NCBI RefSeq assembly: GCF_014904745.1
Contig: NZ_JACZCS010000034.1
Span: forward strand, 1-43,296
DNA from: Oricola nitratireducens
Lineage (GTDB): Bacteria; Pseudomonadota; Alphaproteobacteria; Rhizobiales; Rhizobiaceae
Reading direction: 5' to 3'
Length of the DNA stretch: 43,296 nucleotides
Part shown: positions 16,190 to 37,365 of the stretch, one piece after another
Layout: every line of letters starts with the position of its first letter
How positions within the stretch are numbered: the first letter of the stretch is position 1
The notes under the pieces: model-generated
What the model was told of the DNA's origin: nothing
Seen by the model: only the letters and a program-made list of their open reading frames with translations
Databases searched by the model: none
Made by a program: the position numbers and the translations under genes

Positions 16190-16320
16190 TCACATAAAAT
16201 ATGGCTGCCCTTTCCGCTGAGCTTCCGCGATGTGGAAGACCTGCTCGCAGAGCGCGGCATTGACATTTCCTATGACACCGTCACGCGCGGGTCTTTGAAG
16301 TTCGGGCAGGTGGGCATCCG
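16190..16320 (+). pseudogene. IS6-family transposase remnant
   Basis: The frame here encodes WLPFPLSFRDVEDLLAERG followed by IDISYDTVTRGSLKFG. This closely matches the N-terminal helix-turn-helix region of IS6-family transposases (FPLSxRDVEDLLAERGIxVSYxTVxRWxLKFG). The start of the transposase and the whole DDE catalytic domain are missing, and the conserved RRW is altered to TRG. It is a fragment, not a functional element. No terminal inverted repeats were recognised around it. It marks the right part of the autotransporter islet as a former mobile-element landing site. Confidence 0.8.
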
Positions 16321-16870
16321 CTTTTGGTCTACGTTTCGCCTGTCGAGGATGGCCGCAATGAGGGCACGAAGCAGCCATTCGAACGCTCGTTTCATCACGA
16401 TACTCGGGTAAAGCGCGAATCCGGCCTTTCACCGCATTTCGGCATCTCCTGTCGATAATCAATGCTATTTCGTTGCATAAACCGAATCAGCCTTTCCCCT
16501 AAGCGCATTGATTTCAAATCATTTCTGCCCGCCCGTCCGGTTTGCATATCCAACGCCTCCAATCCTCCCCTATCCTTTCCCGCGTCCTCTCGAAGGAAGC
16601 CCGGATGCGCACCGGCAACGGGGAGCGGGCCGGTGCCTGGCTGGCTGCGGGAGCGTGCCGCGGTCTGGTGATGAGCCCCAAGCCAGGGCGGAAGGCGTCC
16701 CTCGAAGACGGGATCGCAACCGCAAGACCACCGAGCGGGCGGTCGAAGGACCGCACATACACATTAGACAGAGCGATCCTCCGACCGCCCGTCTTCCTGT
16801 TGTTTGACAATCCGGTCTCGAAAACGAGGTGCGGCGATGTTGATGCGTGGCCTTTCCCTCCCGCGGTAAT
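16321..16870. other. gene-poor, strongly self-complementary region (possible structured RNA at 16600-16800)
   Basis: No supported coding sequence. 16609-16796 is rich in complementary pairs. GCACCGGC (16609-16616) pairs with GCCGGTGC (16629-16636), and CCTGGCT (16636-16642) with AGCCAGG (16681-16687). GGATCGC (16711-16717) pairs with GCGATCC (16773-16779), and GAAGACGGG (16704-16712) with CCCGTCTTC (16788-16796). GGGCGGTCG (16737-16745) pairs with CGACCGCCC (16782-16790), and GCGGTC/GACCGC encloses a GAAG loop (16739-16754). Some pairings exclude each other, giving a branched or switching rod. It could be a small RNA on either strand. It was not recognised as tmRNA, RNase P RNA or SRP RNA. 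Confidence 0.35.
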
Positions 16871-16878
16871 GATACCGC

Positions 16879-16909
16879 TTGACCTTCCAGTTACTGGAAG
16901 CCCTATCTA
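16879..16909 (+). promoter_or_regulatory. CueR-type copper promoter and operator of the ATPase gene
   Basis: The -35 is TTGACC (16879-16884) and the -10 is TATCTA (16904-16909), with a 19-bp spacer. The over-long spacer is the hallmark of MerR-family promoters, which are untwisted by the metal-bound regulator. The spacer contains the dyad CTTCCAG (16884-16890) TTA CTGGAAG (16894-16900), which fits copper-responsive CueR/HmrR boxes (ACCTTCC...GGAAGG). A third half-site-like CTGGAAGG (16923-16930) lies in the leader and doubles as the ribosome-binding site. Confidence 0.9.
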
Positions 16910-16938
16910 GGGGTTACAAAGACTGGAAGGTTTGACCC

Positions 16939-19320
16939 ATGGGCACACACGATCATTCGCATCACGAGCACAAGAGCGACGGCAGTTGCTGCGGTTCGGC
17001 GAAAGCCGGGGGCGCGGCGCCTGCGGGCGAGACCGCGATCGATCCCGTCTGCGGGATGACGGTGAAGCTCGGCATTGGAAAGCCGTCGCTGACCTACAAG
17101 GGCACCGAGTACCATTTCTGCAATCCGAAGTGCCACGACCGCTTCGAGGCGGACCCGTATTTCTATTTGTCGGGCAACAACAGGAAAAAGAAAAAGGCGG
17201 CGCCGAAAAACGCGCTCTACACCTGCCCGATGGACCCGGAAATCGTCCAGGAGGGGCCCGGAACCTGCCCGATCTGCGGCATGGCGCTGGAGCCGATGAG
17301 CGGCGTTTCCGACGAGCCGAACCACGAGCTGATCGACTTCACGCGCCGGCTGTGGGTGAGCGCCGGCGCGGCGATCCCGCTGCTGATCCTGACGATGGGC
17401 CCGATGATCGGCCTGCCGGTGCGCGAATGGATCGGCGAGCGGATCGCCGTCTACCTGGAATTCCTGCTGGCGACGCCGGTCGTGCTGTGGGCGGCGCGAC
17501 CGTTCTTCCATCGCGGCTGGACGTCGCTGAAGACGCGCAATTTCAACATGTGGACGCTGATCATGCTCGGCGTCGCGGCGGCCTATGCCTACAGCGTGGT
17601 CGGCACCTTCATGCCGGAACTGTTCCCGGCGCGGATGCTGATGGAAGGCGGCCATGTGCCGGTCTATTTCGAGGCGTCGGTGGTGATCATCGCGCTCGTC
17701 TTCGTCGGCCAGGTGCTGGAATTGCGCGCCCGTGAACGCACCGGCGACGCGATCAAGGCGCTGCTCGATCTGGCGCCGAAGACGGCGCGGCGGATCACGC
17801 CCGACGGCGACGAATATGACGTGCCGCTCGAAAACATCATCGAGGGCGACCTGATGCGGGTCCGGCCGGGCGAAAGCGTGCCCGTCGACGCGGTCGTGCG
17901 CGAAGGCCATTCGTCCGTCGACGAGAGCATGCTCACCGGCGAGCCGCTGCCGGTCGAAAAGGAAGAAGGCGATAACGTCACCGGCGGCACGCTAAACAAG
18001 AACGGTACGCTCGTCATCGAGGCGGCCAAGGTCGGCGAAGACACCATGCTGGCGCATATCGTCGAGATGGTCGCCGCGGCGCAGCGCTCGCGCGCGCCGA
18101 TCCAGGGGCTGGCCGACCGCGTGGCGTCGTATTTCGTGCCGACGGTGGTTGCGGTCGCGATCATCGCCTTCATCTCATGGATGGTGTGGGGCCCGCAGCC
18201 GGCCTTCGTCTTCGCCATCGTCTCGGCGGTCTCGGTGCTGATCATCGCCTGTCCCTGCGCCCTCGGGCTGGCGACGCCGATGTCGATCATGACGGCGACC
18301 GGGCGCGGCGCGCAGGCGGGCGTCCTCGTCAAGGAGGCCGGCGCTCTGGAACGCATGGCGAAAGTCGACACGGTGGTCGTCGACAAGACCGGCACGCTGA
18401 CCGAGGGCCGGCCGAAGCTGACCGACGTGGTGGCGCTCGGCGATGCGAGCGAAGACGACGTGCTGGCCTTCGCCGCGGCGCTGGAGAAGGGCTCCGAGCA
18501 CCCGCTCGCCGAGGCGATCGTCGCCGGGGCGGAAGAGCGGGGGATCAAGCTCGAGGCCGCTTCCGGTTTCGAGGCGGTCACCGGCCGAGGCGTCAAGGGC
18601 ACGGTTGGCGGCAAGGCGGTCGCGCTCGGTAACGGCGCGATGATGCAGGCCGAGGAGATCGAAGCCGGCGCCGCGACGGAGCGCGCGGACGCGTTGCGGA
18701 CCGAGGGCAAGACGGCGATGTTCGTTGCCGTCGACGGAGCGGTCGCCGGCATCGTGGCGGTCGCCGACCCGGTGAAGGAAACCACTGCCGATGCGATCAG
18801 GGCGCTGCACGACGCCGGCCTGCGCATCATCATGGCGACCGGCGACAACGAGCGCACGGCAAAAGCCGTCGCCGCCCATCTCGGCATCGACGAGGTGCGC
18901 GCCGGCGTGCTGCCGGAGGACAAGAAGGCGCTGGTCGACGCACTGCACGCCAGGGGCGCCAGGGTCGCCATGGCCGGCGACGGCGTCAACGACGCGCCGG
19001 CGCTGGCGGCGGCCGATGTCGGCATCGCGATGGGCACCGGCGCCGACGTCGCGGTCGAAAGCGCCGGCATCACGCTTCTCAAGGGCGATCTGCAAGGCAT
19101 CGTCAAGGCGAGGAAACTGGCGCAATCGACGCTTGCCAACATCAAGCAGAATCTGTTCTTCGCCTTCGCCTACAACTCGATCGGGGTCCCGGTCGCGGCC
19201 GGCATCCTCTATCCGCTGACCGGCACGCTGCTGTCGCCGATGATCGCGGCGGTGGCGATGAGCCTGTCGTCGGTCTCGGTCATCTCCAACGCGCTGCGCC
19301 TGCGCTCGCTGAAGCTTTGA
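16939..19320 (+). CDS. copA: Cu(I)-exporting P1B-type ATPase with His-rich, YHS and metal-binding N-terminal domains
   Basis: A 793-residue inner-membrane pump that drives Cu(I) out of the cytoplasm with ATP. The N-terminus has HDHSHHEHK, then a YHS domain (DPVCGM from residue 35, [12 protein letters not shown]) and a heavy-metal-binding motif YTCPMDPE...CPICGMAL (from about 94). The usual HMA domain with a CxxC motif is absent. The core has the CPC transport motif at 438-440, the phosphorylation site DKTGT (Asp482), HP motif SEHPLAEA and GDGVNDAP near 680. The late helices contain YNSIGVP and [15 protein letters not shown], the P1B-1 pattern for Cu(I)/Ag(I). Silver export is the alternative. 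It is transcribed with the CueR-type gene 10 bp downstream. Confidence 0.93.
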
Positions 19321-19330: not shown

Positions 19331-19723
19331 ATGAATATCGGAACGGCCGCCGAACAGGCGAACCTGCCACCCAAGACGATCCGCTACTACGAGGAGATCG
19401 GGCTGTTGTCGCCGGGACGGGCGGAGAACGGTTACCGCGACTATTCGGACAAGGACGTCCACCGCCTGCGCTTCCTGCAGCGTTCGCGCAGCCTCGGCTT
19501 CACGATCGACGAATGCCGGCTGCTGCTGTCGCTCTATGACGACAAGAACCGGGCTAGCGCCGACGTGAAGGCCGTGGCGCTGGAAAAGGTCGCCGAGATC
19601 GACCGCAAGATCGCGGAGCTGCAATCGCTGCGCGACACGCTCGCGACATTGGCGAAGCACTGCCACGGCGACGGCCGGCCGGATTGCCCGATCATCGACG
19701 ATCTCGCGGGGGAGCACGCCTGA
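19331..19723 (+). CDS. cueR: CueR/HmrR-type MerR-family copper-responsive regulator
   Basis: A 130-residue MerR-family activator. The N-terminal winged helix is MNIGTAAEQANLPPKTIRYY, followed by EEIGLLSPGRAENGYRDYS. A dimerisation helix and a metal loop follow, with Cys111 and Cys119 (CHGDGRPDC), the same 8-residue spacing as Cys112/Cys120 in E. coli CueR. Ser76 lies where monovalent-metal sensors have Ser rather than Cys. These features indicate a Cu(I)/Ag(I) sensor. It is expected to act on the 19-bp-spacer promoter at 16879-16909, so it sits at the end of its own regulated operon. The rhizobial name hmrR is equally usable. The gene ends 7 bp from the convergent creatininase-family gene. 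Confidence 0.93.
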   Translation: MNIGTAAEQANLPPKTIRYYEEIGLLSPGRAENGYRDYSDKDVHRLRFLQRSRSLGFTIDECRLLLSLYDDKNRASADVKAVALEKVAEIDRKIAELQSLRDTLATLAKHCHGDGRPDCPIIDDLAGEHA

Positions 19724-19730: not shown

Positions 19731-20531
19731 TCAGCCGGCCAGCCACTCGGCGAGTTTCGCCTTGCGCATGTCGGCGAGGAGTTTGACGAAGCCGCGCGCC
19801 TGGTGTTCGGCTGTGAGTTTTCCCTTCTCGGCGGTCGCCTTGGCGGCTTCCCCGACCGCGCCGCCTGGGTTTACGTCCTGCGCGATCCAGGCGAAGGCGT
19901 GGGTGCCGGTATGGGCGATATGGCTGAATGTCTCCTGCGCGTCGGCAACGCGCGAGGGGAAATTTTCCGCCTTGTCCATCTTCACGGTTTCGGGCCGGAA
20001 ATGCAGCATCAGCGAGGTTTCGACGTCGCCGCCATGGATGCCGTATTTGCGCTCGTAATCGCCATAGAGCCCGTCCGGGACGCCGAAGCGCATCCAGGAC
20101 GTCTTGGCGACCAGCATGTCATGGCGCACCCGCAATTCGCGCGCGACGATGCCCATGATCTCCTCGTTGCCGCCATGCGAGTTGACGATCACCAGCTTGC
20201 GGATGCCGGCGCGGGCGACGGATGCGCCGAGGTCGCACCAGTGGTCGATCAGCGTGGTCGCCGAGATCGTCAGGGTGCCGGGCGAACGGATGTGTTCGTT
20301 CGACTTGCCGACGGCCTGGATCGGCAGGACGCGGACATCGAGATCGTCCGGGACGAGCGGCGAGACGGTCTCCAGCATGCCGGCCATGATCGTGTGGTCG
20401 GTCGAGACCGGCAGATGCGGGCCGTGCTGCTCGGTCGCGGCGATCGGCAGGACCGCGACGACCGCGTCCGGGTCGAGGCCCTCGAAGTCGCGCGTGGTGC
20501 GGTCGCTCCACCAGAAATGTCGGCTCATCAT
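19731..20531 (-). CDS. creatininase-family (creatinine amidohydrolase-like) metal hydrolase
   Basis: A 266-residue protein of the creatininase superfamily, metal-dependent enzymes that open small cyclic amides or remove formyl groups. Conserved ligand motifs are TEQHGPHLPVSTDH (Glu34, His36, His39, Asp45), VNSHGGNEE near residue 118, and the GGDVETSL glutamate near 185. Creatininase itself is only one member; others act on formamidopyrimidines, peptides or ring amides, so the substrate is open. Its ATG overlaps the RidA-like stop (ATGA at 20531-20528), giving a two-gene leftward operon. It faces away from the ABC-importer/amidohydrolase arm and probably belongs to the same pathway. AAGGAG precedes the start. 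Confidence 0.88.
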   Translation of the reverse strand: MMSRHFWWSDRTTRDFEGLDPDAVVAVLPIAATEQHGPHLPVSTDHTIMAGMLETVSPLVPDDLDVRVLPIQAVGKSNEHIRSPGTLTISATTLIDHWCDLGASVARAGIRKLVIVNSHGGNEEIMGIVARELRVRHDMLVAKTSWMRFGVPDGLYGDYERKYGIHGGDVETSLMLHFRPETVKMDKAENFPSRVADAQETFSHIAHTGTHAFAWIAQDVNPGGAVGEAAKATAEKGKLTAEHQARGFVKLLADMRKAKLAEWLAG

Positions 20532-20926
20532 GCGCTCCTTGCCGGTGCGGCCGCGACCGCCTCGATCTCGACCGTGAATTCCTCGCGGGCAAAGCCCGAG
20601 ACGATCATCAGCGTCGAGGCCGGGGCGGGTTCGGAAAACAGTTCGTCACGCACGGCCATATAGGGTTTCAGATGTTCGCGTCCGGTGACATAGGCGTTGA
20701 TGCGCACGATGTTATCCAACGTCATCCCGGCTTCCGTTAGAATTGCCTCGATATTGGCGAAACACAATCGTGCCTGGGCTTCGGTGCCGGCGGGAATCGC
20801 GTCGTCGGGGCCGATGCCCAGCTGGCCGGAACACAAGACCAGCCGCATGCCTTCGGAAACCTCGACGCCATGGCTGTATTTGGCGAAGGGCGGCCGGATC
20901 GACGCCGGCGTCAGATGGGTGAACAA
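20528..20926 (-). CDS. RidA/YjgF-family protein
   Basis: A 132-residue Rid-family protein if started at TTG 20926, which has GGAG 9 bases upstream and gives the normal family length (about 130). A longer in-frame reading to 21187 runs across the sigma-54 promoter and lacks family similarity. Rid proteins hydrolyse reactive enamines/imines to ketones or act as ring-opening helpers (as RutC in pyrimidine breakdown). Family landmarks are LVLCSGQLGIGPDD, QARLCFANIEAILTEAGMTL and FTVEIEAV. The segment PAPASTLMIV appears to lack the conserved Arg of PARS in canonical RidA, so it may belong to a non-archetypal Rid group. It is coupled by overlap to the creatininase-family gene. Confidence 0.85.
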   Translation of the reverse strand: MFTHLTPASIRPPFAKYSHGVEVSEGMRLVLCSGQLGIGPDDAIPAGTEAQARLCFANIEAILTEAGMTLDNIVRINAYVTGREHLKPYMAVRDELFSEPAPASTLMIVSGFAREEFTVEIEAVAAAPARSA

Positions 20927-20956
20927 GGGGGCACTCCGCTTCGGATTTGACGCCCC

Positions 20957-20984
20957 ATAATGCAAAGCGCGTGGGCAAAGACAA
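20957..20984 (-). promoter_or_regulatory. possible promoter of the RidA/creatininase operon
   Basis: On the minus strand, TTGTCT (20984-20979) and CATTAT (20962-20957) are 16 bp apart and about 31 bp upstream of the RidA TTG start, a plausible sigma-70 promoter. TGCAAAGCGCGTGGGCA (20961-20977), a weak NtrC-like dyad (8 of 12 half-site positions), overlaps its spacer. A regulator bound there could act on both divergent operons. Confidence 0.3.
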
Positions 20985-21086
20985 GCGTGCTGCATTTTTG
21001 GGCAACTTGCGATAAAACTGTGCTTGCTGCGAGGAGGTAACGCCGCGATCACATGGAATATTCGGCCGCCAACATGCCGGCATGGC

Positions 21087-21102
21087 TGGCATATCTCTTG
21101 CA
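21087..21102 (+). promoter_or_regulatory. sigma-54 (RpoN) promoter of the NMT1-type ABC/amidohydrolase operon
   Basis: TGGCATATCTCTTGCA has the invariant GG (21088-21089) and GC (21100-21101) exactly 10 bases apart and the TTGCA of the -12 element. Transcription would start near 21113, about 53 bp before the binding-protein ATG. This is the second sigma-54 promoter in the window. It implies that this operon also answers to an enhancer-binding protein such as NtrC. Confidence 0.78.
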
Positions 21103-21165
21103 TTGCATTCCGAGGAACAGAAGCATGGCAAATCGCCCATGCCCCCAGCAAACAGAGGTGTGAAC

Positions 21166-22161
21166 ATGAAACGGATCCTACTGGCAACTACGGCCGTCCT
21201 CGCGGTGCTGTCCACGCAGGCCACCGCGGCCGAGAAGGTGGTCTTCGGCACGAACTGGCTCGCCGAACCGGAGCACGGCGGCTACTACCAGTCGGTTGCC
21301 GACGGCACCTACGCCGCATGCGGCCTCGACGTCGAGATCATGCAGGGTGGGCCGCAGGTTTCCGGCCGGCCGCTGCTTCTGGCAGGCAAGATCGATTTCT
21401 ACATGGGCGGCAACATGCTGCAGGCCTTCTCGGCCGTCGAGCAGGACATTCCGCTGAAGGTCGTCGCCGCCGATTTCCAGAAGGATCCGCAGGTCCTGAT
21501 GTCGCATCCCGGTCAGGGGCTCGACACCTGGGAAGACCTGAAGAAGGCCGACCAGTTCATCCTCGGTGACGAGGGCAACCAGACCTTCTTCCAGTGGATG
21601 GTCGCGGAATTCGGCTTCGACGCGTCCAAGCGCGTTCCCTACACCTTCAACCCGGCGCCCTTCATCGCCAATCCGAAATCCGTCCAGCAGGGCTACGTCA
21701 CGTCGGAGCCGTTCGCCGTCGAACGCGAAGGCGGCTTCAAGCCCAATGTGTTCCTGCTCGCCGACAATGGCTGGAGCACCTACGCCACGACGATCGAGAC
21801 GATGCAGAAGACGATCGACGAACGTCCGGAAGTGGTCAAATGCTTCGTCGAAGGCTCGGCCAAGGGCTGGTACAATTATCTCTACGGCGACAACACGGCC
21901 GCCAACGAGATGATCAAGAAGGACAATCCGGACATGACGGATGAACAGATCGCCTTCTCGATCAAGCAGTTGAAGGATTTCGGCATCGTCGATTCCGGCG
22001 AGACGGAGACCATGGGCATCGGCGCCATGAACGACGAGCGCATGGCCGACTACTATGCCAAGCTGGTCAAGGCGGGCGCCATCGGCGACGGCCTCGACAT
22101 CAAGAAGGCCTATACGCTGGACTTCGTGAACCAGGGCGTCGGGCTCGACCTGAAAAAGTAA
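21166..22161 (+). CDS. NMT1/THI5-type ABC transporter substrate-binding protein
   Basis: A 331-residue periplasmic binding protein. The signal peptide MKRILLATTAVLAVLSTQAT ends at about AA-EKV (residue 22). The mature part has the NMT1/THI5-SsuA fold seen in binding proteins for pyrimidines, sulfonates and nitrate-like compounds: VVFGTNWLAEPEHGGYYQSV near the start and AGKIDFYMGGNMLQAFSAV near residue 85. The pyrimidine-precursor branch seems closest, but the ligand is unknown. The ATG at 21166 is chosen because it starts the signal peptide and follows gaggtg; the open frame extends upstream through the promoter. It is the first gene of the rightward arm. Confidence 0.9.
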   Translation: MKRILLATTAVLAVLSTQATAAEKVVFGTNWLAEPEHGGYYQSVADGTYAACGLDVEIMQGGPQVSGRPLLLAGKIDFYMGGNMLQAFSAVEQDIPLKVVAADFQKDPQVLMSHPGQGLDTWEDLKKADQFILGDEGNQTFFQWMVAEFGFDASKRVPYTFNPAPFIANPKSVQQGYVTSEPFAVEREGGFKPNVFLLADNGWSTYATTIETMQKTIDERPEVVKCFVEGSAKGWYNYLYGDNTAANEMIKKDNPDMTDEQIAFSIKQLKDFGIVDSGETETMGIGAMNDERMADYYAKLVKAGAIGDGLDIKKAYTLDFVNQGVGLDLKK

Positions 22162-22182
22162 CGCTGCGACAGGTAGTTACGC

Positions 22183-23004
22183 GTGGATGTACGAATGGCC
22201 CAAGCGGCAGCCACTGACGGACCGCAGTTGATCCTGCGGTCCGTCGGCAAGACTTTCGGAAATGACGTCGTGGCGCTGCGCGACGTCAACATGACCATCA
22301 ATCACGGCGATTTCCTGAGCCTGCTCGGACCGTCGGGCTGCGGCAAGTCGACGGCGCTGCGGCTGGTGGCCGGGCTGTCCTCGCCGACCTCCGGCCTGCT
22401 CGACTGGCGCGGCCCGCCGATGGGCAAGAGCGATGTCGGCTTCGTCTTCCAGGAGCCGACGCTGATGCCGTGGGCGACGGTGTTCGAGAATGTCTGGCTG
22501 CCGCTGAGGCTGCAGGGCGTTTCGCGCGCCGAGGCGACGCCGCAGGTGAGCGAAGTGCTGGCGCAGGTCAACCTGACCGGCTTCGAGAATGCGGTGCCGC
22601 GCGAATTGTCGGGCGGCATGAAAATGCGCGTCTCGATCGCGCGCGGCCTCGTCACGCGGCCGCGTCTCCTGCTGATGGACGAGCCCTTCGCCGCTCTCGA
22701 CGAGATCACGCGTTTCCAGCTCAACAGCGATCTTCTGGCCTTGTGGGAGCAGGAGCGCTTCACCGTCATCTTCGTGACGCACAGCGTGTTCGAGAGCGTG
22801 TTCCTGTCGAACCGCATCGTGGTCATGGCGGCACATCCGGGCCGCGTTTACGGTGAGATGGAGGTCGACGCACCTTATCCGCGCGACGAGCAGTTCAGAA
22901 CGTCGGAGGATTACGCCCATCTGACCCGCAAGGCGTCGTCGATCCTTCGGGCGGCGATGGGCATCGAAGACGGCGAGGGGGCGCATCCCGATGTCCTTCA
23001 CTGA
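22183..23004 (+). CDS. ABC transporter ATP-binding protein (SsuB/TauB-like)
   Basis: A 273-residue ATPase of the nitrate/sulfonate/pyrimidine import type. It has Walker A GPSGCGKST (about residues 48-56), the Q-loop VFQEPTLMPW, signature LSGGMKMRVSIARGL and Walker B LLMDEPFAALD. LSGGM in place of LSGGQ is common in this subfamily. The GTG at 22183 is used because AGG lies 9 bases upstream; ATG 22195 is an alternative start four codons later. The 3' end overlaps the permease start at 22991. Together the three proteins form one importer for the cluster's substrate. Confidence 0.9.
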   Translation: MDVRMAQAAATDGPQLILRSVGKTFGNDVVALRDVNMTINHGDFLSLLGPSGCGKSTALRLVAGLSSPTSGLLDWRGPPMGKSDVGFVFQEPTLMPWATVFENVWLPLRLQGVSRAEATPQVSEVLAQVNLTGFENAVPRELSGGMKMRVSIARGLVTRPRLLLMDEPFAALDEITRFQLNSDLLALWEQERFTVIFVTHSVFESVFLSNRIVVMAAHPGRVYGEMEVDAPYPRDEQFRTSEDYAHLTRKASSILRAAMGIEDGEGAHPDVLH

Positions 23005-23860
23005 CACGCGGTCGCATGCGGCGCATGAAGAGGTGCCTATCGACGCCGAGGAGGCGCGGCGTGCCCGCGCGCGCAGGCTGGAGAAGACCGGCCGGTGGCT
23101 GTTTCCGATGCTGATCATGGTTCTGGCGATCATCATGTGGGACCGGATCTGCGTCTGGAACGAGATCCCGCGCTACATCCTGCCGCGCCCGGGCGAGGTG
23201 CTGGCGACGCTGATCACGGACCGGGGGCTTTTGTTCTCCTCGCTTCTGACGACACTGAAGATCACCTTCCTGTCGCTTCTTCTGGCGGTGCTGGGCGGGG
23301 TTGGGCTGTCGGTGCTGTTCACCCAGTCGAAATGGGTGGAGATGAGCTTTTTTCCCTTCGCCGTCATTTTGCAGGTAACGCCGATCGTGGCGATCTTTCC
23401 GCTGATCAACATCTATGTCGACAACCAGACGGCGAAGCTTCTGCTGTGCGCGTGGATCGTCGCCTTCTTCCCGATCCTGTCGAACACGACGCTGGGGCTG
23501 AACTCGGTCGATCGCAACCTGCTCGACCTGTTCAAGCTGAACGGCGCGTCCCGCTGGCAGACATTGTGGCACCTGCGCCTGCCGGCATCGATGCCGTATT
23601 TTCTCGGCGGGCTGAAAATCGCCGGCGGTCTGGCGCTGATCGGCGCCGTCGTGGCGGAATTCGTGGCCGGCACGTCGGGTCAATCCTCGGGCCTCGCGAG
23701 CCGGATCATCGAGGCCGGTTACCGGCTGAACGCGCCGCGGCTTTTTGCGGCTTTGATCCTGATATCGTTCACCGGCATCCTCATCTTCCTCGTGCTGACC
23801 TGGATTTCCAACCGGATCCTGCGCCGCTGGCACGAAAGCGCGCTGAAACAGGAGCATTGA
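22991..23860 (+). CDS. ABC transporter permease (SsuC/ThiX-like)
   Basis: A 289-residue inner-membrane permease with about six helices after a charged 35-residue N-terminal tail. The cytoplasmic coupling loop has the EAA-like sequence LLDLFKLNGASRWQTLWHLR followed by LPASMPYFLGGLKIA, typical of BPD permeases for nitrate, sulfonate or pyrimidine-type substrates. It probably works as a homodimer, since only one permease gene is present. Its start overlaps the ATPase gene by 14 bp and its stop overlaps the amidohydrolase start (TGATG), showing tight coupling of uptake and catabolism. Confidence 0.9.
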   Translation: MSFTDTRSHAAHEEVPIDAEEARRARARRLEKTGRWLFPMLIMVLAIIMWDRICVWNEIPRYILPRPGEVLATLITDRGLLFSSLLTTLKITFLSLLLAVLGGVGLSVLFTQSKWVEMSFFPFAVILQVTPIVAIFPLINIYVDNQTAKLLLCAWIVAFFPILSNTTLGLNSVDRNLLDLFKLNGASRWQTLWHLRLPASMPYFLGGLKIAGGLALIGAVVAEFVAGTSGQSSGLASRIIEAGYRLNAPRLFAALILISFTGILIFLVLTWISNRILRRWHESALKQEH

Positions 23861-25173
23861 TGTCTGGTGGTCCGATCGTTTCCAGCGGCAAGGGTTTCAC
23901 GCTGCATCGCGTACATCTGCATTCGTCCTGGGTCGATGGCGGCGCCGCGCGCCACGACAGCGAGGGTTTCGGCCTTTACGACCTGACCGTCGCCGATGGG
24001 CGCATCGCGGCGATCGCGCCGTCGACGGATGACAGCGCCGGCGCGGAAAACGACATGCGCCGCCGGGTCGTCATGCCGGCCTTCATCGATTGCCACACCC
24101 ATCTCGACAAGGGCCATATCTGGCCGCGCAAGCCCAATCCGGACGGTTCCTTTCCCGGTGCGCTGGAGGCGGTCGGGGCGGACCGCATGACCAATTGGTC
24201 GGCCGCCGATGTCGAGGCGCGCATGGAGTTCGCGCTGAAATGCGCCTGGGCCTACGGCACCAGGGCGATCCGCACCCATCTCGATTCGTTGCCGCCGCAG
24301 GAGACGATTTCGTGGCCGGTCTTCGAGATGATGCGCGAGCGCTGGGCCGGCCGGATCGACCTGCAGGCGGCGTGCCTGTTCGGGATCGACTCGGCGCGCG
24401 ACGAAGCATGGTTCGACAATCTGGTCGCGCGGGTGAAGGCGGCGGGCGGCGTGCTCGGCGCCGTCACCTACATGGTGCCGGACCTCGACGAATTGCTCGA
24501 CCGGATGTTCCGGGCCGCGCTCGATCACGGGCTGGAACTTGATTTCCATGCAGACGAGACGGACGCTGTCGAGGCGGTGTCGCTGCGCAGGATCGCCGAA
24601 GCGGCGGCGCGGCACGGCTATGACGGCCGTATCCTGATCGGCCATTGCTGCTCGCTGGCGCGCCAGCCCGACGCGGAAGTTTTGCGCACGCTCGATGCGG
24701 TCGCCGCCAGGAACATCTCGGTCGTCTCGCTGCCGATGTGCAACATGTACCTGCAGGACCGTAGGTCCGACGGCGCGACGCCGCGCTGGCGCGGGGTGAC
24801 GCTACTGCACGAGATGAAGGCGCGCGGCATCAATGTCTGCGTCGCCTCGGACAATACGCGCGATCCGTTCTACGCCTATGGCGATCTCGACATGATCGAG
24901 GTCTACCGCATGGCGACGCGCACCATCCATTTCGATCATCCTGTCGCCGACTGGCCGAAGACGGTTCTCGCCAATCCGGCGCGAGCGATGGGACTGGACG
25001 ACAGCTACGGCAAGCTTGCGGAAGGCGGACCGGCGGATTTCGTGATCTGCGAGGGACGCTCCTGGACGGAAGTGCTGTCGCGGCCGGAAAGCGGGCGCAT
25101 CGTCGTGCGCAACGGGGCGGTCGTCGACCGCGCGCTGCCCGCCTACGAGGAACTTGACCGTTTAATGGAGTAG
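23860..25173 (+). CDS. cytosine-deaminase-like amidohydrolase (CodA family)
   Basis: A 437-residue metal-dependent amidohydrolase. Ligand residues fit the CodA layout: His79 and His81 (DCHTHLDKGH), His230 with Glu233 (DFHADE), His262 (IGHCC) and Asp331 (ASDNTRD). CodA deaminates cytosine to uracil; relatives act on isocytosine, creatinine, cyanuric-type rings and other cyclic amidines. With all catalytic positions kept, the protein should be active on an N-heterocycle. The linkage to a creatininase-family hydrolase, a RidA-like protein and oxidoreductases argues for a substrate other than plain cytosine. The ATG overlaps the permease stop (TGATG) and the gene is followed 3 bp later by the FAD oxidoreductase. 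Confidence 0.87.
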   Translation: MSGGPIVSSGKGFTLHRVHLHSSWVDGGAARHDSEGFGLYDLTVADGRIAAIAPSTDDSAGAENDMRRRVVMPAFIDCHTHLDKGHIWPRKPNPDGSFPGALEAVGADRMTNWSAADVEARMEFALKCAWAYGTRAIRTHLDSLPPQETISWPVFEMMRERWAGRIDLQAACLFGIDSARDEAWFDNLVARVKAAGGVLGAVTYMVPDLDELLDRMFRAALDHGLELDFHADETDAVEAVSLRRIAEAAARHGYDGRILIGHCCSLARQPDAEVLRTLDAVAARNISVVSLPMCNMYLQDRRSDGATPRWRGVTLLHEMKARGINVCVASDNTRDPFYAYGDLDMIEVYRMATRTIHFDHPVADWPKTVLANPARAMGLDDSYGKLAEGGPADFVICEGRSWTEVLSRPESGRIVVRNGAVVDRALPAYEELDRLME

Positions 25174-25176
25174 GAC

Positions 25177-26583
25177 ATGGCCGATTTGCAGGCGCTGAGA
25201 GCGGATATCGAAGGCATCAGGATCGAGGACAACGAGAAGATCGTCCAGCAGAAGAGCCGGGACTTCTACTGGTATTCGCCGGTGCTAAAGGAGCGCCTCG
25301 AAGCCGTGACCGGCGATCTCGTCGTCTCGCCCAAAACAGAAGCCGAATTGATCCGCGTCCTGAAGGCCTGCTACAGGCACGGTGTGCCGGTGACGCCGCG
25401 CGGCACGGGAACCGGAAATTACGGCCAGGCGATGCCGCTGTCCGGCGGCGTGGTTTTGTCGCTCGCCGACATGAACGAGATCCGTGAAATCGCGCCGGGC
25501 AGGGCGGTTGTCGGTCCCGGGGTGATCTGCTCCGACCTCGACAAGGCGGCTCGTTTCGAGTCCGGCCAGGAGATGCGGATGCATCCTTCCACGGCGCATA
25601 CGGCGACGGTCGGCGGTTTCATCGCCGGCGGCTCGGGCGGCGTCGGGTCGACGCGCTGGGGCGGCTTGCGCGACTTCGGCAATGTCATCCGGTTGCGCGT
25701 CGTCACGATGGAAGAGGAGCCGCGCGCCCTCGAGCTGACCGGCGAGGACCTGCACAAGGTCACGCACGCCTACGGCACCAACGGCATCATCACCGAGGTC
25801 GAACTGCCGCTGACGGCGGCCTATGACTGGGTCGACGTGATCGTCGCCTTCGACGATTTCATGGAGGCGGCGACCTACGCCAATGCGCTCGGCCGCCAGG
25901 ACGGCATCCTGTTGAAGCTGAACACGGTCGTCGCGGCGCCGGCGCCGTTCGACTATTTCAAGCGGCATCAGAAATTCCTCAAGGAAGGCGAGAACACCGT
26001 CATCTGCATGGTGGCGCCGCAATCGCTCGATGCGTTCCTTGCCTTCACGCGCCGCGAGGGCGGACGTATCGCCTTCAACCGGTCGGAACTGGCCGAAGAG
26101 GACCTTCGCGGCCTGCCCGTCGCCTACGAGCTCGCGTGGAACCACACGACGCTGCGCGGCCTGCGCGTCGACCCGGCGATCACCTATCTGCAGGTGCTCT
26201 ATCCGTTCCCGGACCAGCTCGCGCTGGTCTCGAAGCTGCACGAAATGTTCGAGGGCGAGGTGATCGATCATCTCGAATTCGTGCGCTTCGACGGCGACAT
26301 CACCTGTTTCGGTCTGCCGATGGTGCGGTATTCCACGGAGGAACGGCTCGACGAGATCATCGAGACGTTCAATCGCGAAGGCGCGCCGATCTTCAATCCG
26401 CATCGCTACACGCTGGAAGAGGGCGGCATGAAGCAGACGGACGAGATCCAGCTTGCCTTCAAGCGCGAGGCGGACCCCAGGGGATTGCTCAATCCGGGCA
26501 AGATGATCGCCTGGGAAAATCCGGATTACGACTTCGACAGCGGCGCCGTCTGGCTGTTCAAGGGACTGCAGAAAGCGGGTTGA
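25177..26583 (+). CDS. FAD-binding oxidoreductase (GlcD/VAO-type)
   Basis: A 468-residue flavoprotein of the vanillyl-alcohol-oxidase/GlcD superfamily. The FAD-binding PP-loop is at about residues 70-90 (VTPRGTGTGNYGQAMPLSGG), with the second pyrophosphate-binding segment HTATVGGFIAGGSGGVGSTR near 143-162. The C-terminal cap ends with FNPHRYTLEEGG and LLNPGKMI, as in the D-lactate/glycolate dehydrogenase group. It lacks an Fe-S domain. In this operon it is probably the oxidation step that prepares the imported ring compound, or it oxidises a 2-hydroxy acid released later. The substrate cannot be read. The gene starts 3 bp after the amidohydrolase stop. Confidence 0.87.
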   Translation: MADLQALRADIEGIRIEDNEKIVQQKSRDFYWYSPVLKERLEAVTGDLVVSPKTEAELIRVLKACYRHGVPVTPRGTGTGNYGQAMPLSGGVVLSLADMNEIREIAPGRAVVGPGVICSDLDKAARFESGQEMRMHPSTAHTATVGGFIAGGSGGVGSTRWGGLRDFGNVIRLRVVTMEEEPRALELTGEDLHKVTHAYGTNGIITEVELPLTAAYDWVDVIVAFDDFMEAATYANALGRQDGILLKLNTVVAAPAPFDYFKRHQKFLKEGENTVICMVAPQSLDAFLAFTRREGGRIAFNRSELAEEDLRGLPVAYELAWNHTTLRGLRVDPAITYLQVLYPFPDQLALVSKLHEMFEGEVIDHLEFVRFDGDITCFGLPMVRYSTEERLDEIIETFNREGAPIFNPHRYTLEEGGMKQTDEIQLAFKREADPRGLLNPGKMIAWENPDYDFDSGAVWLFKGLQKAG

Positions 26584-26587
26584 GACC

Positions 26588-27169
26588 ATGCGCATCCTCG
26601 TGCTTCACGCGCATCCGGTCGCCGAAAGCTATAACGGGTCCCTGCATCGCCTGATCGTCGAGCGCCTGACGGCCAACGGCCACAAGGTGGACGATTGCGA
26701 TCTCTATGCCGAAGGTTTCGATCCGCGCCTGACCCGCGATGAGCGGCTGAACTATCACGATATCGGGCCGAACATCGAGCCGGTGAGGGTCTATGTCGAG
26801 CGGCTGCGTGCGGCGGAAGCGCTGGTGATGAGCTATCCGGTCTGGAACTTCGGCTACCCGGCAATGCTGAAGGGCTTCTTCGACCGCGTGTTTCTGCCCG
26901 GCGTGTCGTTCAAGATGGTCGACGGCAAGGCGACCCCGTGCCTGCACAACATCCGCAAGGTCAACGTCGTCACGACCTATGGCGGTACGCGCACCCGCGC
27001 TTTCCTCGTCGGTGACCCGCCGCGCAAGGCGGTCAACCGGGTGCTGCGGGTGATCGTCAAGCCAGGCGCGCCGTTCAAGTATCTCGCGCATTACGACATG
27101 AACCGCTCGACCGACACGACGCGCAAACGGTTCATCGGGCGTGTCGAGCAGGCGATGGATGCCTTCTGA
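26588..27169 (+). CDS. flavodoxin-fold NAD(P)H oxidoreductase, first copy
   Basis: A 193-residue member of the flavodoxin_2 (NQO1/MdaB/KefF-like) family. The nucleotide-binding start is RILVLHAHPVAESYNGSLH, then DLYAEGFDPRL, and the FMN/FAD-contact segment is YPVWNFGYPAMLKGFFDRV (about residues 80-98). Such enzymes reduce quinones, azo or nitro groups, or free flavin, using NAD(P)H. Here it may reduce a ring intermediate or supply electrons. It begins 4 bp after the FAD oxidoreductase and its stop overlaps the next start (TGATG). It is clearly paralogous to the following gene. Confidence 0.88.
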   Translation: MRILVLHAHPVAESYNGSLHRLIVERLTANGHKVDDCDLYAEGFDPRLTRDERLNYHDIGPNIEPVRVYVERLRAAEALVMSYPVWNFGYPAMLKGFFDRVFLPGVSFKMVDGKATPCLHNIRKVNVVTTYGGTRTRAFLVGDPPRKAVNRVLRVIVKPGAPFKYLAHYDMNRSTDTTRKRFIGRVEQAMDAF

Positions 27170-27756
27170 TGCGCATCCTTGTCATTTTCTGCCATCCTGT
27201 GCCCGAAAGTTACGGTACGGCACTGCGCGACACGGTGATGAAGGGGCTGGCCGAGGGGGGAAACGAGACGCGGCTGATCGATCTCTATGCCGAGAAGTTC
27301 GATCCTGTCATGGGCTGCGAGGAGCGGCGCACCTATAACGACATGAAAAGCCATCAGCATCCGGTGCCCGACCATGCGGCGCACCTGGCCTGGGCGGAGG
27401 GGCTGGTGTTCGTTTATCCGACCTGGTGGTATGGCTTGCCGGCGATGCTGAAGGGGTGGCTCGACCGGGTCTGGACGCCGGAAATCACGTTCTCGATTGC
27501 GCCCGACACCAAGCGGATCCGGCCGCTGATGACGCATATTCGCAAGCTCGGGGTCGTGACCACCTGCGGCGCGCCGCGCTGGTGGTCCTATCTCGTCGGT
27601 CATCCCGGCAAGCGCACGATCATGCGCGGCATGCGGGCGCTGTTCGCCAGGCGCTGCAAGACGGTCTTTCTCGCCCACTATCTGATGGATGTGTCGACGC
27701 CACAATCACGAGCCGCGTTTCTCGGCAGGGTCGAGCGTGAGATGCGCCGGTTCTGA
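27169..27756 (+). CDS. flavodoxin-fold NAD(P)H oxidoreductase, second copy
   Basis: A 195-residue paralogue of the previous gene with matching landmarks: RILVIFCHPVPESYGTALRD, DLYAEKFDPVMGCEERR, YPTWWYGLPAMLKGWLDRVW and VVTTCGAPRWWSYLVGHPG. The active-site segment WWYGLP differs from WNFGYP in the first copy, so the two may act on successive intermediates or form a heterodimer. The gene ends 6 bp before the convergent LacI-type gene, closing the catabolic operon. Confidence 0.88.
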   Translation: MRILVIFCHPVPESYGTALRDTVMKGLAEGGNETRLIDLYAEKFDPVMGCEERRTYNDMKSHQHPVPDHAAHLAWAEGLVFVYPTWWYGLPAMLKGWLDRVWTPEITFSIAPDTKRIRPLMTHIRKLGVVTTCGAPRWWSYLVGHPGKRTIMRGMRALFARRCKTVFLAHYLMDVSTPQSRAAFLGRVEREMRRF

Positions 27757-27762: not shown

Positions 27763-28857
27763 TCAGACCGCCACGGGCGGTTTCGTCTCTTCGGCACGGT
27801 TTTCGATCGGCGGCGTTTTGCCGCCGTCCCCGTCCGGATATGACAGAAACTGCAGCTCCGTTGGCGGAACGCCCTGAATCGAGCGGATGACGCAGGTCGC
27901 CAGATCGCGCCCGCCGAGGCGCACGTCCTCGTTGATGACCTCGATATCCTCGCGGAAGCGCCTGAGGATATTGGTGTGCTGCTTGGAGACGATCAGAACG
28001 TCACGGCCGACGCGCAGCCCGGCCTGCTCGATCCCTGCGACCGCCGCGATCGCCGCGCCACCGCTGCCGCAGACGATGCCGTCCGGGCGATCCGGCGACT
28101 GCATGACCTCGAAGACGCCGGCCTGGATCGTATCGAGATTGTCGTCGACGGTGATCGTGTCAAGCGGAACCCGGCGCAGGCCGCATTCGCGCAGTCCCGT
28201 CGTGAACCCGGCCTTCATGTGGCGCGAATAGGTCAGGATGTCGGGCGGAGCGATCAGGGCGAGGCGTCTGGCCCCGCGTTCGGCGAGACGTTTCACTGCG
28301 TCATAGGCAAAGCGTTCGTTATCGAAATCGTGCCACGGATGCTCGATGCCCATCTCGGTGCGCCCATGGGTTGCGAAGGGCATGCCGTTTTCGGTCAGGT
28401 AGCGCACGCGCCGGTCCTGCAATTCCGTGCGTGACAGGATGATCCCGTCGGCGGAACCGGTTTCGACGATGTATCGCACCGGCTCCATGGGATCGTTCTG
28501 GTGCGCATAAGGCGTCACGACGAGATGGTATGGCGTATCGCGCAGCACCTCGGAAATGCCGTAGACCATCTGCGACGTCAGGCCCATGACCTCTTCCTCG
28601 GTGTTGAGAACGAGGCTGATGACATTGGTCTTGCCGGTGCGCAGGCGCACGCCGGCACGGTTGGGCCGGTAACCGATCTGCTGGGCGACGAGACGGACGC
28701 GCTGCTTGGTCTCCATGCCGATATCGGGCGCGTCCTTGAGCGCGCGCGAAACCGCCGTCACCGAATAACCTGTCATGTAGGCGATGGTTTTCAGGGTCGG
28801 AGGCCCGGCAGTCGGGACCGTCGTGTCCGGCCGATCAGTTCTTTTTCTTTTTGTCAT
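27763..28857 (-). CDS. LacI-family transcriptional regulator of the glycan locus
   Basis: A 364-residue LacI/GalR regulator with a 20-residue basic N-terminal extension. The helix-turn-helix is TLKTIAYMTGYSVTAVSRAL (residues 21-40), followed by the hinge YRPNRAGVRLRTGKTNVISL. The remaining 290 residues are a type-1 periplasmic-binding-like sensor that probably binds a sugar made by or imported into this locus. It is divergent from the sugar ABC operon. Two matching AACGTTAAAGT sites lie in the shared 308-bp space, one near each gene, so control of the ABC operon plus self-control is likely. The inducer is unknown. Confidence 0.9.
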   Translation of the reverse strand: MTKRKRTDRPDTTVPTAGPPTLKTIAYMTGYSVTAVSRALKDAPDIGMETKQRVRLVAQQIGYRPNRAGVRLRTGKTNVISLVLNTEEEVMGLTSQMVYGISEVLRDTPYHLVVTPYAHQNDPMEPVRYIVETGSADGIILSRTELQDRRVRYLTENGMPFATHGRTEMGIEHPWHDFDNERFAYDAVKRLAERGARRLALIAPPDILTYSRHMKAGFTTGLRECGLRRVPLDTITVDDNLDTIQAGVFEVMQSPDRPDGIVCGSGGAAIAAVAGIEQAGLRVGRDVLIVSKQHTNILRRFREDIEVINEDVRLGGRDLATCVIRSIQGVPPTELQFLSYPDGDGGKTPPIENRAEETKPPVAV

Positions 28858-28934
28858 GTTCCCGGCCCCTGAATGCCGCCGGAATATAGGCTGGCGGGGA
28901 TGAGGGTTTCAACCAGTGCGACGCTTTTTCCGCA

Positions 28935-28945
28935 AACGTTAAAGT
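28935..28945. promoter_or_regulatory. candidate LacI-family operator, regulator-proximal
   Basis: AACGTTAAAGT is identical over 11 bases to the site at 29139-29149. It contains the AACGTT palindrome core typical of LacI-family sites. It lies about 78 bp upstream of the LacI-type start codon, where it could mediate self-control or DNA looping with the distal site 204 bp away. Confidence 0.5.
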
Positions 28946-29101
28946 ATTTTGCGTTGCGGCAATTCATTTTGCGGTGCCGAAGTGCAGATTGATGCGCGCT
29001 TGATCGAGGTTCTATAACTCGCTGAATTTTATACGTTAATTGCTCAATTTTCGATGTCTGTCCGATTTTCTTCACAGCTCGAATTATTTTTTCCGAACCT
29101 G

Positions 29102-29130
29102 TTGCGCGACAAATTGCCTTGCCATACAGT
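29102..29130 (+). promoter_or_regulatory. candidate sigma-70 promoter of the sugar ABC operon
   Basis: TTGCGC (29102-29107) and TACAGT (29125-29130) are 17 bp apart and sit directly upstream of the operator-like site at 29139-29149. A repressor bound there would cover the transcription start. Confidence 0.45.
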
Positions 29131-29138
29131 TTCACTGC

Positions 29139-29149
29139 AACGTTAAAGT
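29139..29149. promoter_or_regulatory. candidate LacI-family operator, operon-proximal
   Basis: AACGTTAAAGT lies 8 bp after the predicted -10 element and 16 bp before the binding-protein ATG, matching the site at 28935-28945. Placement over the start of transcription fits repression by the divergent LacI-type protein. Confidence 0.55.
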
Positions 29150-29165
29150 TTCCAGGGAGGAATAC

Positions 29166-30407
29166 ATGCGTCTTCGTACAATGATTGCGGCACTGGCGGC
29201 GTCCGCCGTCCTGCCGATCACCGGCGCCCAGGCGACCGATCTCGAGGTCACCCACTGGTGGACTTCGGGCGGTGAAGCCGCCGCGGTCGCCGAATTCGCC
29301 AAGGCGTTCGATAATGACGGAGCCGGCGACCACTGGGTCGACGGCGCCATTGCCGGGTCCGGCGGTGTCGCGCGTCCGATCATGATCAGCCGGATCACCG
29401 GCGGTGATCCGATGGGCGCCACGCAATTCAACCATGGCCGCCAGGCGGAGGAACTGGTCCAGGCCGGGTTGATGCGCGATCTTACCGATCTCGCGGACAA
29501 GGAAGGCTGGCGCGATGCGATCGGCGATCCGAAGCTGCTCGATTCCTGCACACTGGACGGCAAGGTCTATTGCGTGCCGGTTAATATCCACTCCTGGCAG
29601 TGGCTGTGGCTGAACCGTCACGTCTACGAAGACAACGGCTTGGCCGTGCCGACCAATTGGGAAGAATTCGTTTCGACCGCTCCGGCGCTGCGCGAAAAGG
29701 GTATCATCCCTCTCGCCATGGGCAACCAGCCCTGGCAGTCCTCCGGCGCTTTCAATGTGATGGCGATCGCGCTGACCGGTGTCGATAACTTCCTTGCCGT
29801 CAACCGCGACAAGGATGCCGAGGTGGCGGCCGGTCCGGCTTATGCACGCTTGTTCAAGGCCGCGGCTGACGCCCGCGATTTGCGCCAGGGTTCGAACGTT
29901 CAGGACTGGAACCAGGCAACCAGCATGGTCATCACCGGCAAGGCCGCCGGCCAGATCATGGGCGACTGGGCCCAGGGCGAATTCGCTGTGGCCGGCAAGG
30001 TCGCCGGCGTCGACTACGACTGCCTGCCGGGCCTCGGCACGAACCCGATCGTGTCCACGGACGGCGACGCGTTCTACTTCCCGAAACTTGACGATCCCGA
30101 CAAGTCGGCGGCCCAGTTGCGGCTGGCCTCGGTGATGTTCTCCAAGGAGGCGCAGGTCGCGTTCAACCTGAAGAAGGGATCGATGCCGATTCGCACCGAC
30201 GTCGACCTGGCGCAGGCCAATGCCTGCATGAAAAAGGGTATCGCCCTGCTCAAGGAAGGCAAGATCGCTCCGTCTACCAACCAGCTCCTCAGCCCGGACA
30301 CTTCCGGTCAGATCGAGGATCTGATGACCGAGTTCTGGTCGAGCGACTCGATGAGCGCCGAAGATGCACAGAAGCGTTACGCGGAAATCATCGCGAACGC
30401 CGACTGA
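29166..30407 (+). CDS. sugar ABC transporter substrate-binding protein (family 1)
   Basis: A 413-residue periplasmic sugar or oligosaccharide receptor. The signal peptide runs to about AQA-TDL (residue 22). The mature start LEVTHWWTSGGEAAAVAEFA is the usual opening of CUT1 binding proteins. Later landmarks are VYCVPVNIHSWQWLWLNR and AAGQIMGDWAQGEFAVAGK. ATG 29166 is chosen for the signal peptide and the strong GGGAGG just upstream; the open frame extends further back without support. With the enzymes downstream, manno- or xylo-oligosaccharides are likely ligands, by inference. Two hairpins follow the stop. Confidence 0.93.
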   Translation: MRLRTMIAALAASAVLPITGAQATDLEVTHWWTSGGEAAAVAEFAKAFDNDGAGDHWVDGAIAGSGGVARPIMISRITGGDPMGATQFNHGRQAEELVQAGLMRDLTDLADKEGWRDAIGDPKLLDSCTLDGKVYCVPVNIHSWQWLWLNRHVYEDNGLAVPTNWEEFVSTAPALREKGIIPLAMGNQPWQSSGAFNVMAIALTGVDNFLAVNRDKDAEVAAGPAYARLFKAAADARDLRQGSNVQDWNQATSMVITGKAAGQIMGDWAQGEFAVAGKVAGVDYDCLPGLGTNPIVSTDGDAFYFPKLDDPDKSAAQLRLASVMFSKEAQVAFNLKKGSMPIRTDVDLAQANACMKKGIALLKEGKIAPSTNQLLSPDTSGQIEDLMTEFWSSDSMSAEDAQKRYAEIIANAD

Positions 30408-30415
30408 TCTCCTCC

Positions 30416-30463
30416 CGGGCATGCAATGCCCGCCGTCGGCCTGCGATCTCGCAGGTCGGCGGC
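30416..30463 (+). repeat. double hairpin between binding-protein and permease genes
   Basis: CGGGCAT (30416-30422) and ATGCCCG (30426-30432) form a 7-bp stem around GCA. Directly after it, GCCGTCGGCCTGCGA (30432-30446) pairs almost completely with TCGCAGGTCGGCGGC (30449-30463). No T-run follows. Such structures after binding-protein genes usually keep that message in excess over the permease part of the operon. Confidence 0.65.
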
Positions 30464-30508
30464 ATCTTCGACACTTTGAGCCAGCCGGTCTGCCGGTAGG
30501 GGGTGACA

Positions 30509-31402
30509 ATGGCGCAATATCCGCGCCCCGTACAACTGTTCCGGAATCTGAACGCGAAGATCGCCGCGATTCCGATGATCGTAACCGCGGTCGTGATATT
30601 TGCTGGCGGTACGATCTGGACCGTCGTCTATTCGTTCACGAACTCCAAACTGCTGCCACGGGTGAAATGGGTTGGACTGGACCAGTATGAACGGCTCTGG
30701 TCGACCAGCCGCTGGCTGATCTCCATCGAGAATTTGATGATCTACGGCGTGTGTTCGCTGATCTTTTCGCTGGTCATCGGGTTCATGCTCGCCGCGCTGC
30801 TCGATCAGAAGATCCGGTTCGAAAACACGTTCCGCTCCATCTTTCTTTTTCCGTTTGCGCTCAGCTTCATCGTCACCGGGCTGGTGTGGCAGTGGATACT
30901 CAATCCGGATTTCGGCGTTCAGAGCGTGATCCGCGAGCTGGGATGGGAGAGCTTCTCCTTCGATCCGCTCTACAACCCGAACATCGTCATCTATGGAATC
31001 CTGATTGCCGGCCTGTGGCAGGGAACCGGGCTCATCATGTGCCTGATGCTGGCTGGTCTGCGCGGCATCGACGAGGACGTGTGGAAGGCGGCGCGCGTCG
31101 ACGGCATCCCGGTCTGGAAGACCTATCTCTTCATCATCATTCCGATGATGCGGCCGGTGTTCATCACGACGCTGGTCATCATCGCCTCGGGCATCGTACG
31201 CGTCTACGACCTCGTCGTCGCCCAGACGAGCGGCGGACCGGGCATCGCCTCCGAAGTGCCGGCGAAATATGTCTACGACAAGATGTTTCTCGGCCAGAAC
31301 CTCGCCCAGGGCTTCGCCGGCTCGACGATGATGCTGCTGTCGGTGCTGATCGTCCTGATCCCCTGGGCCTATCTCGAATTCGGGGGCAAGAAACGTGTCT
31401 AA
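30509..31402 (+). CDS. sugar ABC transporter permease (MalF/UgpA-like)
   Basis: A 297-residue CUT1 permease with about six helices. The ATPase-coupling EAA loop reads DEDVWKAARVDGIPVWKTYL followed by FIIIPMMRP (about residues 190-220). ATG 30509 follows a TAGGGGG ribosome-binding sequence; GTG 30503 is an alternative. It pairs with the next permease; their genes overlap by 8 bp. Confidence 0.92.
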   Translation: MAQYPRPVQLFRNLNAKIAAIPMIVTAVVIFAGGTIWTVVYSFTNSKLLPRVKWVGLDQYERLWSTSRWLISIENLMIYGVCSLIFSLVIGFMLAALLDQKIRFENTFRSIFLFPFALSFIVTGLVWQWILNPDFGVQSVIRELGWESFSFDPLYNPNIVIYGILIAGLWQGTGLIMCLMLAGLRGIDEDVWKAARVDGIPVWKTYLFIIIPMMRPVFITTLVIIASGIVRVYDLVVAQTSGGPGIASEVPAKYVYDKMFLGQNLAQGFAGSTMMLLSVLIVLIPWAYLEFGGKKRV

Positions 31403-32339: not shown

Positions 32340-32345
32340 TTATCC

Positions 32346-33437: not shown

Positions 33438-33452
33438 GGCACACGATCTCCC

Positions 33453-36577: not shown

Positions 36578-36598
36578 GCCCATTTCGAGGATGTATCC

Positions 36599-37354: not shown

Positions 37355-37365
37355 GGATTGGAAAC

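Follow-up and report, generated by a model that had tools for sequence, protein, structure and literature searches.

A probable pterin uptake and oxidative catabolism cluster in Oricola nitratireducens, with a sigma-54 promoter that belongs to one clade

Nine adjacent genes and their co-occurrence

The window analysed here is a stretch of 43,296 nucleotides from Oricola nitratireducens (contig NZ_JACZCS010000034.1), and it contains a cluster of nine contiguous genes, arranged as two divergent arms, between positions 19731 and 27756 (Table 1). The minus-strand arm encodes a creatininase-family protein and a RidA protein. The plus-strand arm encodes an NMT1-type solute-binding protein (SBP), the ATPase and the permease of an ATP-binding cassette (ABC) importer, a CodA-like amidohydrolase, a VAO-type flavin adenine dinucleotide (FAD) enzyme, and two flavodoxin-fold reductases (A and B), which are NQO-like. 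Pfam and NCBIfam matches bear out both the two arms and the families that an initial annotation, made from the sequence alone, had assigned to them. That annotation had also described overlapping starts and stops in each arm, which is true of some junctions only, because four overlap (creatininase start/RidA stop by 4 bases, ATPase/permease by 14, permease/CodA by 1, and reductase A/B by 1) and three have gaps (33 bases for SBP/ATPase, 3 for CodA/FAD, and 4 for FAD/reductase A).

Table 1. Coordinates of the cluster genes and of the promoter box, with proposed functions and the match or pattern behind each assignment
Feature	Position	Strand	Basis
Creatininase-family hydrolase, 266 amino acids (aa), proposed ring-opening amide/ring hydrolase	19731..20531	-	PF02633, E 4.6e-69
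RidA-family imine/enamine deaminase, 132 aa, TTG start assumed	20528..20926	-	PF01042, E 1.9e-21
Sigma-54 -24/-12 box TGGCATATCTCTTGCA	21087..21102	+	Strict pattern and conservation in relatives
NMT1/THI5-type SBP, proposed pterin receptor	21166..22161	+	PF09084
ABC transporter ATPase	22195..23004	+	PF00005
ABC transporter permease (BPD)	22991..23860	+	PF00528
CodA-like amidohydrolase, proposed pterin deaminase	23860..25173	+	NF005759, 611 bits
VAO-type FAD enzyme (FAD_binding_4), proposed flavin oxygenase of folate/pterin catabolism	25177..26583	+	PDB 6v42/6v43, phmmer E 8e-254
Flavodoxin-fold NAD(P)H reductase A (Flavodoxin_2)	26588..27169	+	PF02525, E 3.5e-29
Flavodoxin-fold NAD(P)H reductase B (Flavodoxin_2)	27169..27756	+	PF02525, E 3.1e-31

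The families of the cluster are found together well beyond this genome. Selection of loci by similarity to the FAD protein gave a set of 88, of which 8 are regions of plasmids and 80 are contigs of genomes; several are truncated at a contig end. In this set, tblastn with the proteins of the window found the FAD and CodA-like genes in all 88, the permease in 86, the ATPase and the SBP in 83 each, RidA in 81 (83 with a wider query set), the creatininase in 80, reductase A in 76, and reductase B in 46. These counts are conditional on the FAD gene because of the way the loci were selected. With the wider query set, all eight functions are present in 74 of the 88 loci and in 67 of the 75 that span 19 kb or more; among the latter, L046, L068, L071, and L088 are without the creatininase, L096 and L099 without RidA, and L015 and L016 without a flavodoxin-fold reductase.

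A less biased test used the window's genome together with 60 relatives, with a threshold of E 1e-60 for the CodA-like gene. Of these 61 genomes, 20 have the FAD gene and 19 the CodA-like gene, the 19 all falling within the 20 and none among the other 41 (Fisher p 7e-15, relatedness ignored); G048 is the sole genome with the FAD gene and without the CodA-like gene. In all 19 genomes with both, the two genes lie at most about 70 bases apart. The pair is accessory in the genus, being present in 4 of the 6 genomes. The window's own genome has a single match to the FAD query at E 1e-20, the query itself. A creatininase gene, found at E 1e-40 in 46 of the 61 genomes, is not diagnostic when taken alone. 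The cluster is very probably one functional unit for the uptake and the hydrolytic and oxidative breakdown of a small nitrogen heterocycle, as the initial annotation had supposed. That annotation had named a lack of co-occurrence as grounds for refutation, and the genes do co-occur.

Some loci show other surroundings. More distant homologues of the FAD, CodA, and creatininase genes (L116, positions 5398-17857; L113; and L114) lie near open reading frames (ORFs) that resemble, by eye, Rieske oxygenases, isochorismatase-type hydrolases, and amidases. On a Klebsiella pneumoniae plasmid (L015/L102), the module is accompanied by a PDR/VanB reductase and, divergently, by genes for a second receptor, a PRK12393-type amidohydrolase, and a 2OG-Fe(II) oxygenase; a search of Escherichia coli genomes with the DNA of the Klebsiella FAD gene gave no match.

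The promoter of the plus-strand arm

The box TGGCATATCTCTTGCA ends 63 bases before the ATG of the SBP gene. The strict sigma-54 pattern, TGGCAYRNNNNTTGCW, has two sites in the window (at 21087 and 4697), where shuffled sequences lead one to expect 0.01. When a less stringent pattern that allows up to two mismatches is used, the window shows no excess (15 sites found, 16.5 expected), so the case for the promoter rests on the strict form and on its conservation. The latter was surveyed upstream of the SBP gene in 99 sequences, the window included, after 10 of 109 had been dropped for having no SBP match or fewer than 300 upstream bases. The strict pattern occurs in 37 of the 99, many of them from Mesorhizobium, against a total of 0.06 expected from shuffles (relatedness ignored). 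Its distribution is sharply divided: 36 of the 37 loci with an SBP at least 71% identical, counting the window, have the box (L045 is the exception), 70 to 101 bases upstream of the aligned SBP start, whereas among the 62 more distant loci only L071 has it and the Rhizobium-type clusters are without it. The sigma-54 promoter that the initial annotation had placed before this arm is thus well supported as real, and it belongs to one clade.

Across 19 box-bearing loci, the DNA around the box is mostly diverged; this alignment cannot show conservation of the box itself because it is centred on it and includes box-bearing loci only, and it is the 99-sequence survey that does so. Many of the 19 have, by eye, a GGGCA...TGCC-like inverted repeat upstream of the box, a possible candidate for an enhancer site. 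No gene for an enhancer-binding protein was seen among the 40 ORFs of the window run against Pfam, a scan that covered part of its genes and in which 8 ORFs, probably wrong-frame readings, had no match. A LysR homologue is found in 34 of the 88 loci. The second strict box of the window, TGGCACGGCGATTGCT at 4697-4712, stands 35 bases before the ATG (4748) of a Peripla_BP_5 receptor gene, which we take to be of the urea/amide type and which is followed by genes for a branched-chain-type permease and an ATPase.

Relatives of the encoded proteins

For key members of the cluster, relatives with a tie to folate and pterin breakdown have already been characterised or deposited. The FAD enzyme matches PDB entries 6v42 and 6v43 over nearly its full length (phmmer), and 6v42 is the top Foldseek match of its AlphaFold2 model (predicted local distance difference test score, pLDDT, 79), with the same fold and 77% identity; the deposited protein differs from that of the window. 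The entry bears the title 'Crystal structure of the flavin oxygenase with cofactor bound involved in folate catabolism'. To call the cluster undescribed, as had been done initially, is therefore only partly right: searches of one open-access library (subscription literature lying outside the search) listed no account of the whole cluster or of its downstream half, but the FAD enzyme is close to a protein deposited as a flavin oxygenase of folate catabolism and the CodA-like protein is indirectly linked to pterin deaminases. The passages of PMC1557990 and PMC11406972 drawn on here deal with other genes.

The CodA-like protein scores 611 bits against NF005759 ('cytosine deaminase'; cut-off 403), which would favour a true cytosine deaminase in a cluster that scavenges cytosine or uracil. 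We consider this extremely improbable. The cluster protein does share the amidohydrolase family and the metal-site motifs of E. coli CodA, these motifs being kept in 87 or 88 of 88 cluster homologues, but in the alignment to the E. coli protein the DD pair of cytosine deaminases, whose numbering as Asp313/Asp314 and whose role we assume here, is DN in 88 of 88 and DD in none. The solved cytosine deaminases are distant (best match E 4.7e-29, 105 bits) and not much nearer than AtzC (E 5.2e-21, 78 bits), and the cluster proteins of Klebsiella and Alloyangia fall below the NF005759 cut-off, with 230 and 329 bits. Nor do any of the ten proteins scanned reach the cut-off of a Rut model (for the ATPase and the CodA-like protein, among the matches listed, the best 25 families), and the RidA protein scores 23.7 bits against RutC (cut-off 169.1); the Rut pyrimidine pathway was accordingly rejected. 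So was creatinine degradation: the creatininase-family protein has the PF02633 family in common with creatininase and MftE, but it scores far under the equivalog cut-offs of both (TIGR04448, 93.7 bits for a cut-off of 235; TIGR03964, 105.7 for 172). The absence of a match to these two pathways, part of the initial annotation, holds.

A different affiliation of the CodA-like protein is suggested by work on folate degradation. In the passages of PMC9513972 drawn on here, the pterin deaminase (PDA) of Variovorax sp. F1, of 399 aa, acts as a deaminase on folate (Km 0.28 mM) and on pteroate, shares 37% identity with Arad3529 of Agrobacterium radiobacter K84, and is placed near 'predicted cytosine and creatine amidases'; in V. 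paradoxus, PDA-type genes are followed downstream by a conserved endoribonuclease gene. 'Endoribonuclease L-PSP' is the Pfam description of the RidA family. PDA and Arad3529, by that account close relatives of predicted cytosine deaminases and with an endoribonuclease-annotated neighbour, would resemble the cluster in these two respects. For Arad3529, a 2013 paper reportedly proposed an undescribed pterin degradation pathway. The differences are also apparent: the Variovorax account, in the same passages, comprises a deaminase and a carboxypeptidase G and names no importer, flavin oxygenase, or creatininase (PMC9513972).

As a proxy for PDA and Arad3529 we used the CodA-like protein of L120 (same phylum), which has a PDA-like length (400 aa if an internal ATG is taken as the start, 436 with the first start codon). 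Its gene comes immediately before one for RidA, in a cluster that also holds FAD, SBP, permease, ATPase, creatininase, and reductase genes. Of the three CodA paralogues in the Rhizobium rhizogenes genome of L099, the one encoded in the cluster matches this proxy best (35%, versus 30% and 27%). By this comparison, at about 35% identity, the CodA-like protein of the window appears to belong with the pterin/folate deaminases. A pattern made from the published Variovorax primer plus guessed extra bases was found in 0 of 299 genomes; the protein search that replaced it gave matches in 31 of 250.

The importer fits the same substrate. The AlphaFold2 model of the SBP (pLDDT 92) has its best fold matches in thiamin-bound 4nmy and formylaminopyrimidine-binding 3ix1, yet with only 19-21% identity, followed by Thi5 and PqqT, which binds pyrroloquinoline quinone, and lower down by sulfonate, taurine, and nitrate receptors. 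The best matches thus bind aza-aromatic vitamins or cofactors, which would be compatible with a pterin ligand and is not proof of it. A PHROGs scan of the SBP gave no match.

A proposed pathway and its alternatives

From the gene content, co-occurrence, homology, and conserved promoter box we infer a substrate, an order of steps, an electron donor, and a mode of induction. Judged by sequence comparison, the cluster is probably a unit for the uptake and oxidative catabolism of pterins, the ring system of folate. The process would involve 1) uptake of pterins by the ABC importer; 2) hydrolytic removal of the 2-amino group by the CodA-like amidohydrolase, turning pterin into lumazine and ammonia; 3) oxidation of the deaminated ring by the FAD flavin oxygenase, with the flavodoxin-fold reductases as its likely NAD(P)H-dependent source of electrons; 4) opening, by the creatininase-family hydrolase, of the lactam/amide ring formed by flavin oxygenation; 5) hydrolysis of the resulting imine or enamine by RidA; and 6) transcription of the right (plus-strand) arm by the sigma-54 form of RNA polymerase together with an enhancer-binding protein, a mode of expression that would suit a nitrogen source. 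Pterins are better supported as substrates than the pyrimidines, purines, hydantoins, lactams, and flavin-ring fragments listed in the initial annotation. The more ambitious proposition is that this is a complete and widespread aerobic pathway opening the pterin bicycle itself, in which pterins serve as a nitrogen source, sigma-54 acts in one clade, and creatininase-family and RidA proteins have new functions; we hold it tentatively, the balance leaning slightly against it.

A number of observations weigh against pterins as the substrate, or against parts of the proposed route. First, the folate assignment of 6V42 comes solely from the title of the PDB entry, and the search of the open-access library listed no paper on 6V42 or 6V43. 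Second, the link of the CodA-like protein to Arad3529 and Variovorax PDA runs through a proxy, at about 35% identity, while the name of the NCBIfam model that it matches is that of another enzyme; in addition, L120-type CodA genes have a RidA match within a flank of about 1.5 kb in only 10 of 25 loci (L126 being the same gene as L120). Third, there is no folate-splitting gene to be seen in the cluster, and deaminopteroate was hardly degraded by Variovorax F1 extract, in the passages of PMC9513972 used here, which also state that F1 cultures used more folate than the products account for. Fourth, the flavodoxin-fold reductase is not universal: of 20 further loci, 8, mostly distant, are without a match to it, and L122 alone among these 8 has a PDR/VanB match. 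Where no flavodoxin-fold reductase was found, a PDR/VanB-type reductase (L015, L016, and L122) or a 2Fe-2S protein (L123) is present in four cases, which lends weak support to an electron supply; the argument is weak because L035 (at a contig end) and the seven loci L108, L109, L112, L114, L115, L117, and L118, in which 2Fe-2S proteins were not sought, have neither a flavodoxin-fold nor a PDR/VanB match. Fifth, the substrates of related modules may be other heterocycles, since G002 (C43:182215-186437) and G004 (C18:739539-742691) have second, diverged CodA/FAD pairs (CodA 54% and FAD 45-46% identical), that of G002 with a creatininase between the two genes, and the stretches L124 and L125 have CodA-like genes with no FAD match.

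A further point is that genes of the 8-oxoguanine deaminase family and RutR-like regulators could mean oxidised purines or pyrimidines as substrates. The same chemistry might indeed degrade another amino-substituted nitrogen ring, fused or single, e.g., 8-oxoguanine, isoguanine, or a 5-hydroxypyrimidine. L046 and L071, where the creatininase was not found, have a gene of the 8-oxoguanine deaminase family beside RidA (NF006055, 646 bits each, cut-off 532), and weaker matches in L015 and L077 bring the total to 4 of 88 loci. The TetR-type regulator of L020, with relatives in L018, L119, L120, and L123, falls short of the RutR model (TIGR03613), with 151 bits for a cut-off of 368, and in Klebsiella L102 the amidohydrolase (an 81-aa fragment) and the 2OG-Fe(II) oxygenase mentioned above lie beside the cluster. 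Against this stand the title of 6V42 and the link to pterin deaminases; moreover, enzymes of the 8-oxoguanine deaminase type may accept pterins too. Such a substrate seems unlikely to us.

The neighbourhood of the cluster raises one more alternative, i.e., that it serves detoxification and not nutrition, its reductases and hydrolases neutralising quinone-like, redox-active heterocycles. On the left it borders on a CueR gene (19331-19723), preceded by a gene for a heavy-metal P-type ATPase (16939-19320) with HMBD and YHS domains, and this copper-efflux pair also adjoins the cluster in L103-L105, of the same genus, and in L065, where it follows the reductase at the opposite end. These genes and the NQO-like reductases would suit detoxification. 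A dedicated importer in the same operon argues against it, as does the rarity with which copper ATPase/CueR homologues accompany it (4 of 111 other loci), for which the pair was rejected as part of the cluster. We regard detoxification as very improbable. The LacI-type regulator gene at the right border (27763-28857) was likewise rejected, as it adjoins a sugar importer and presumably goes with it. It opens a region (27763-42054) with genes for a sugar ABC importer, a GH2 mannosidase-like protein, D-lyxose isomerase, GFO/IDH, an aldo/keto reductase, and GH43, which looks like a cluster for sugars of plant polysaccharides. An autotransporter of 1049 residues is encoded at 12792-15941.

The mechanism of folic acid degradation in the environment is described as not fully elucidated and has been followed as far as deaminopteroate, according to the passages of PMC9513972 drawn on here. 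For the mineralisation of the pterin ring of folates, the cluster, read as a unit for pterins, offers a candidate gene for each of the later steps (ring oxidation, ring opening, and imine hydrolysis) together with an importer, in tractable rhizobia. It would also correct the label 'cytosine deaminase' on many plasmid records.

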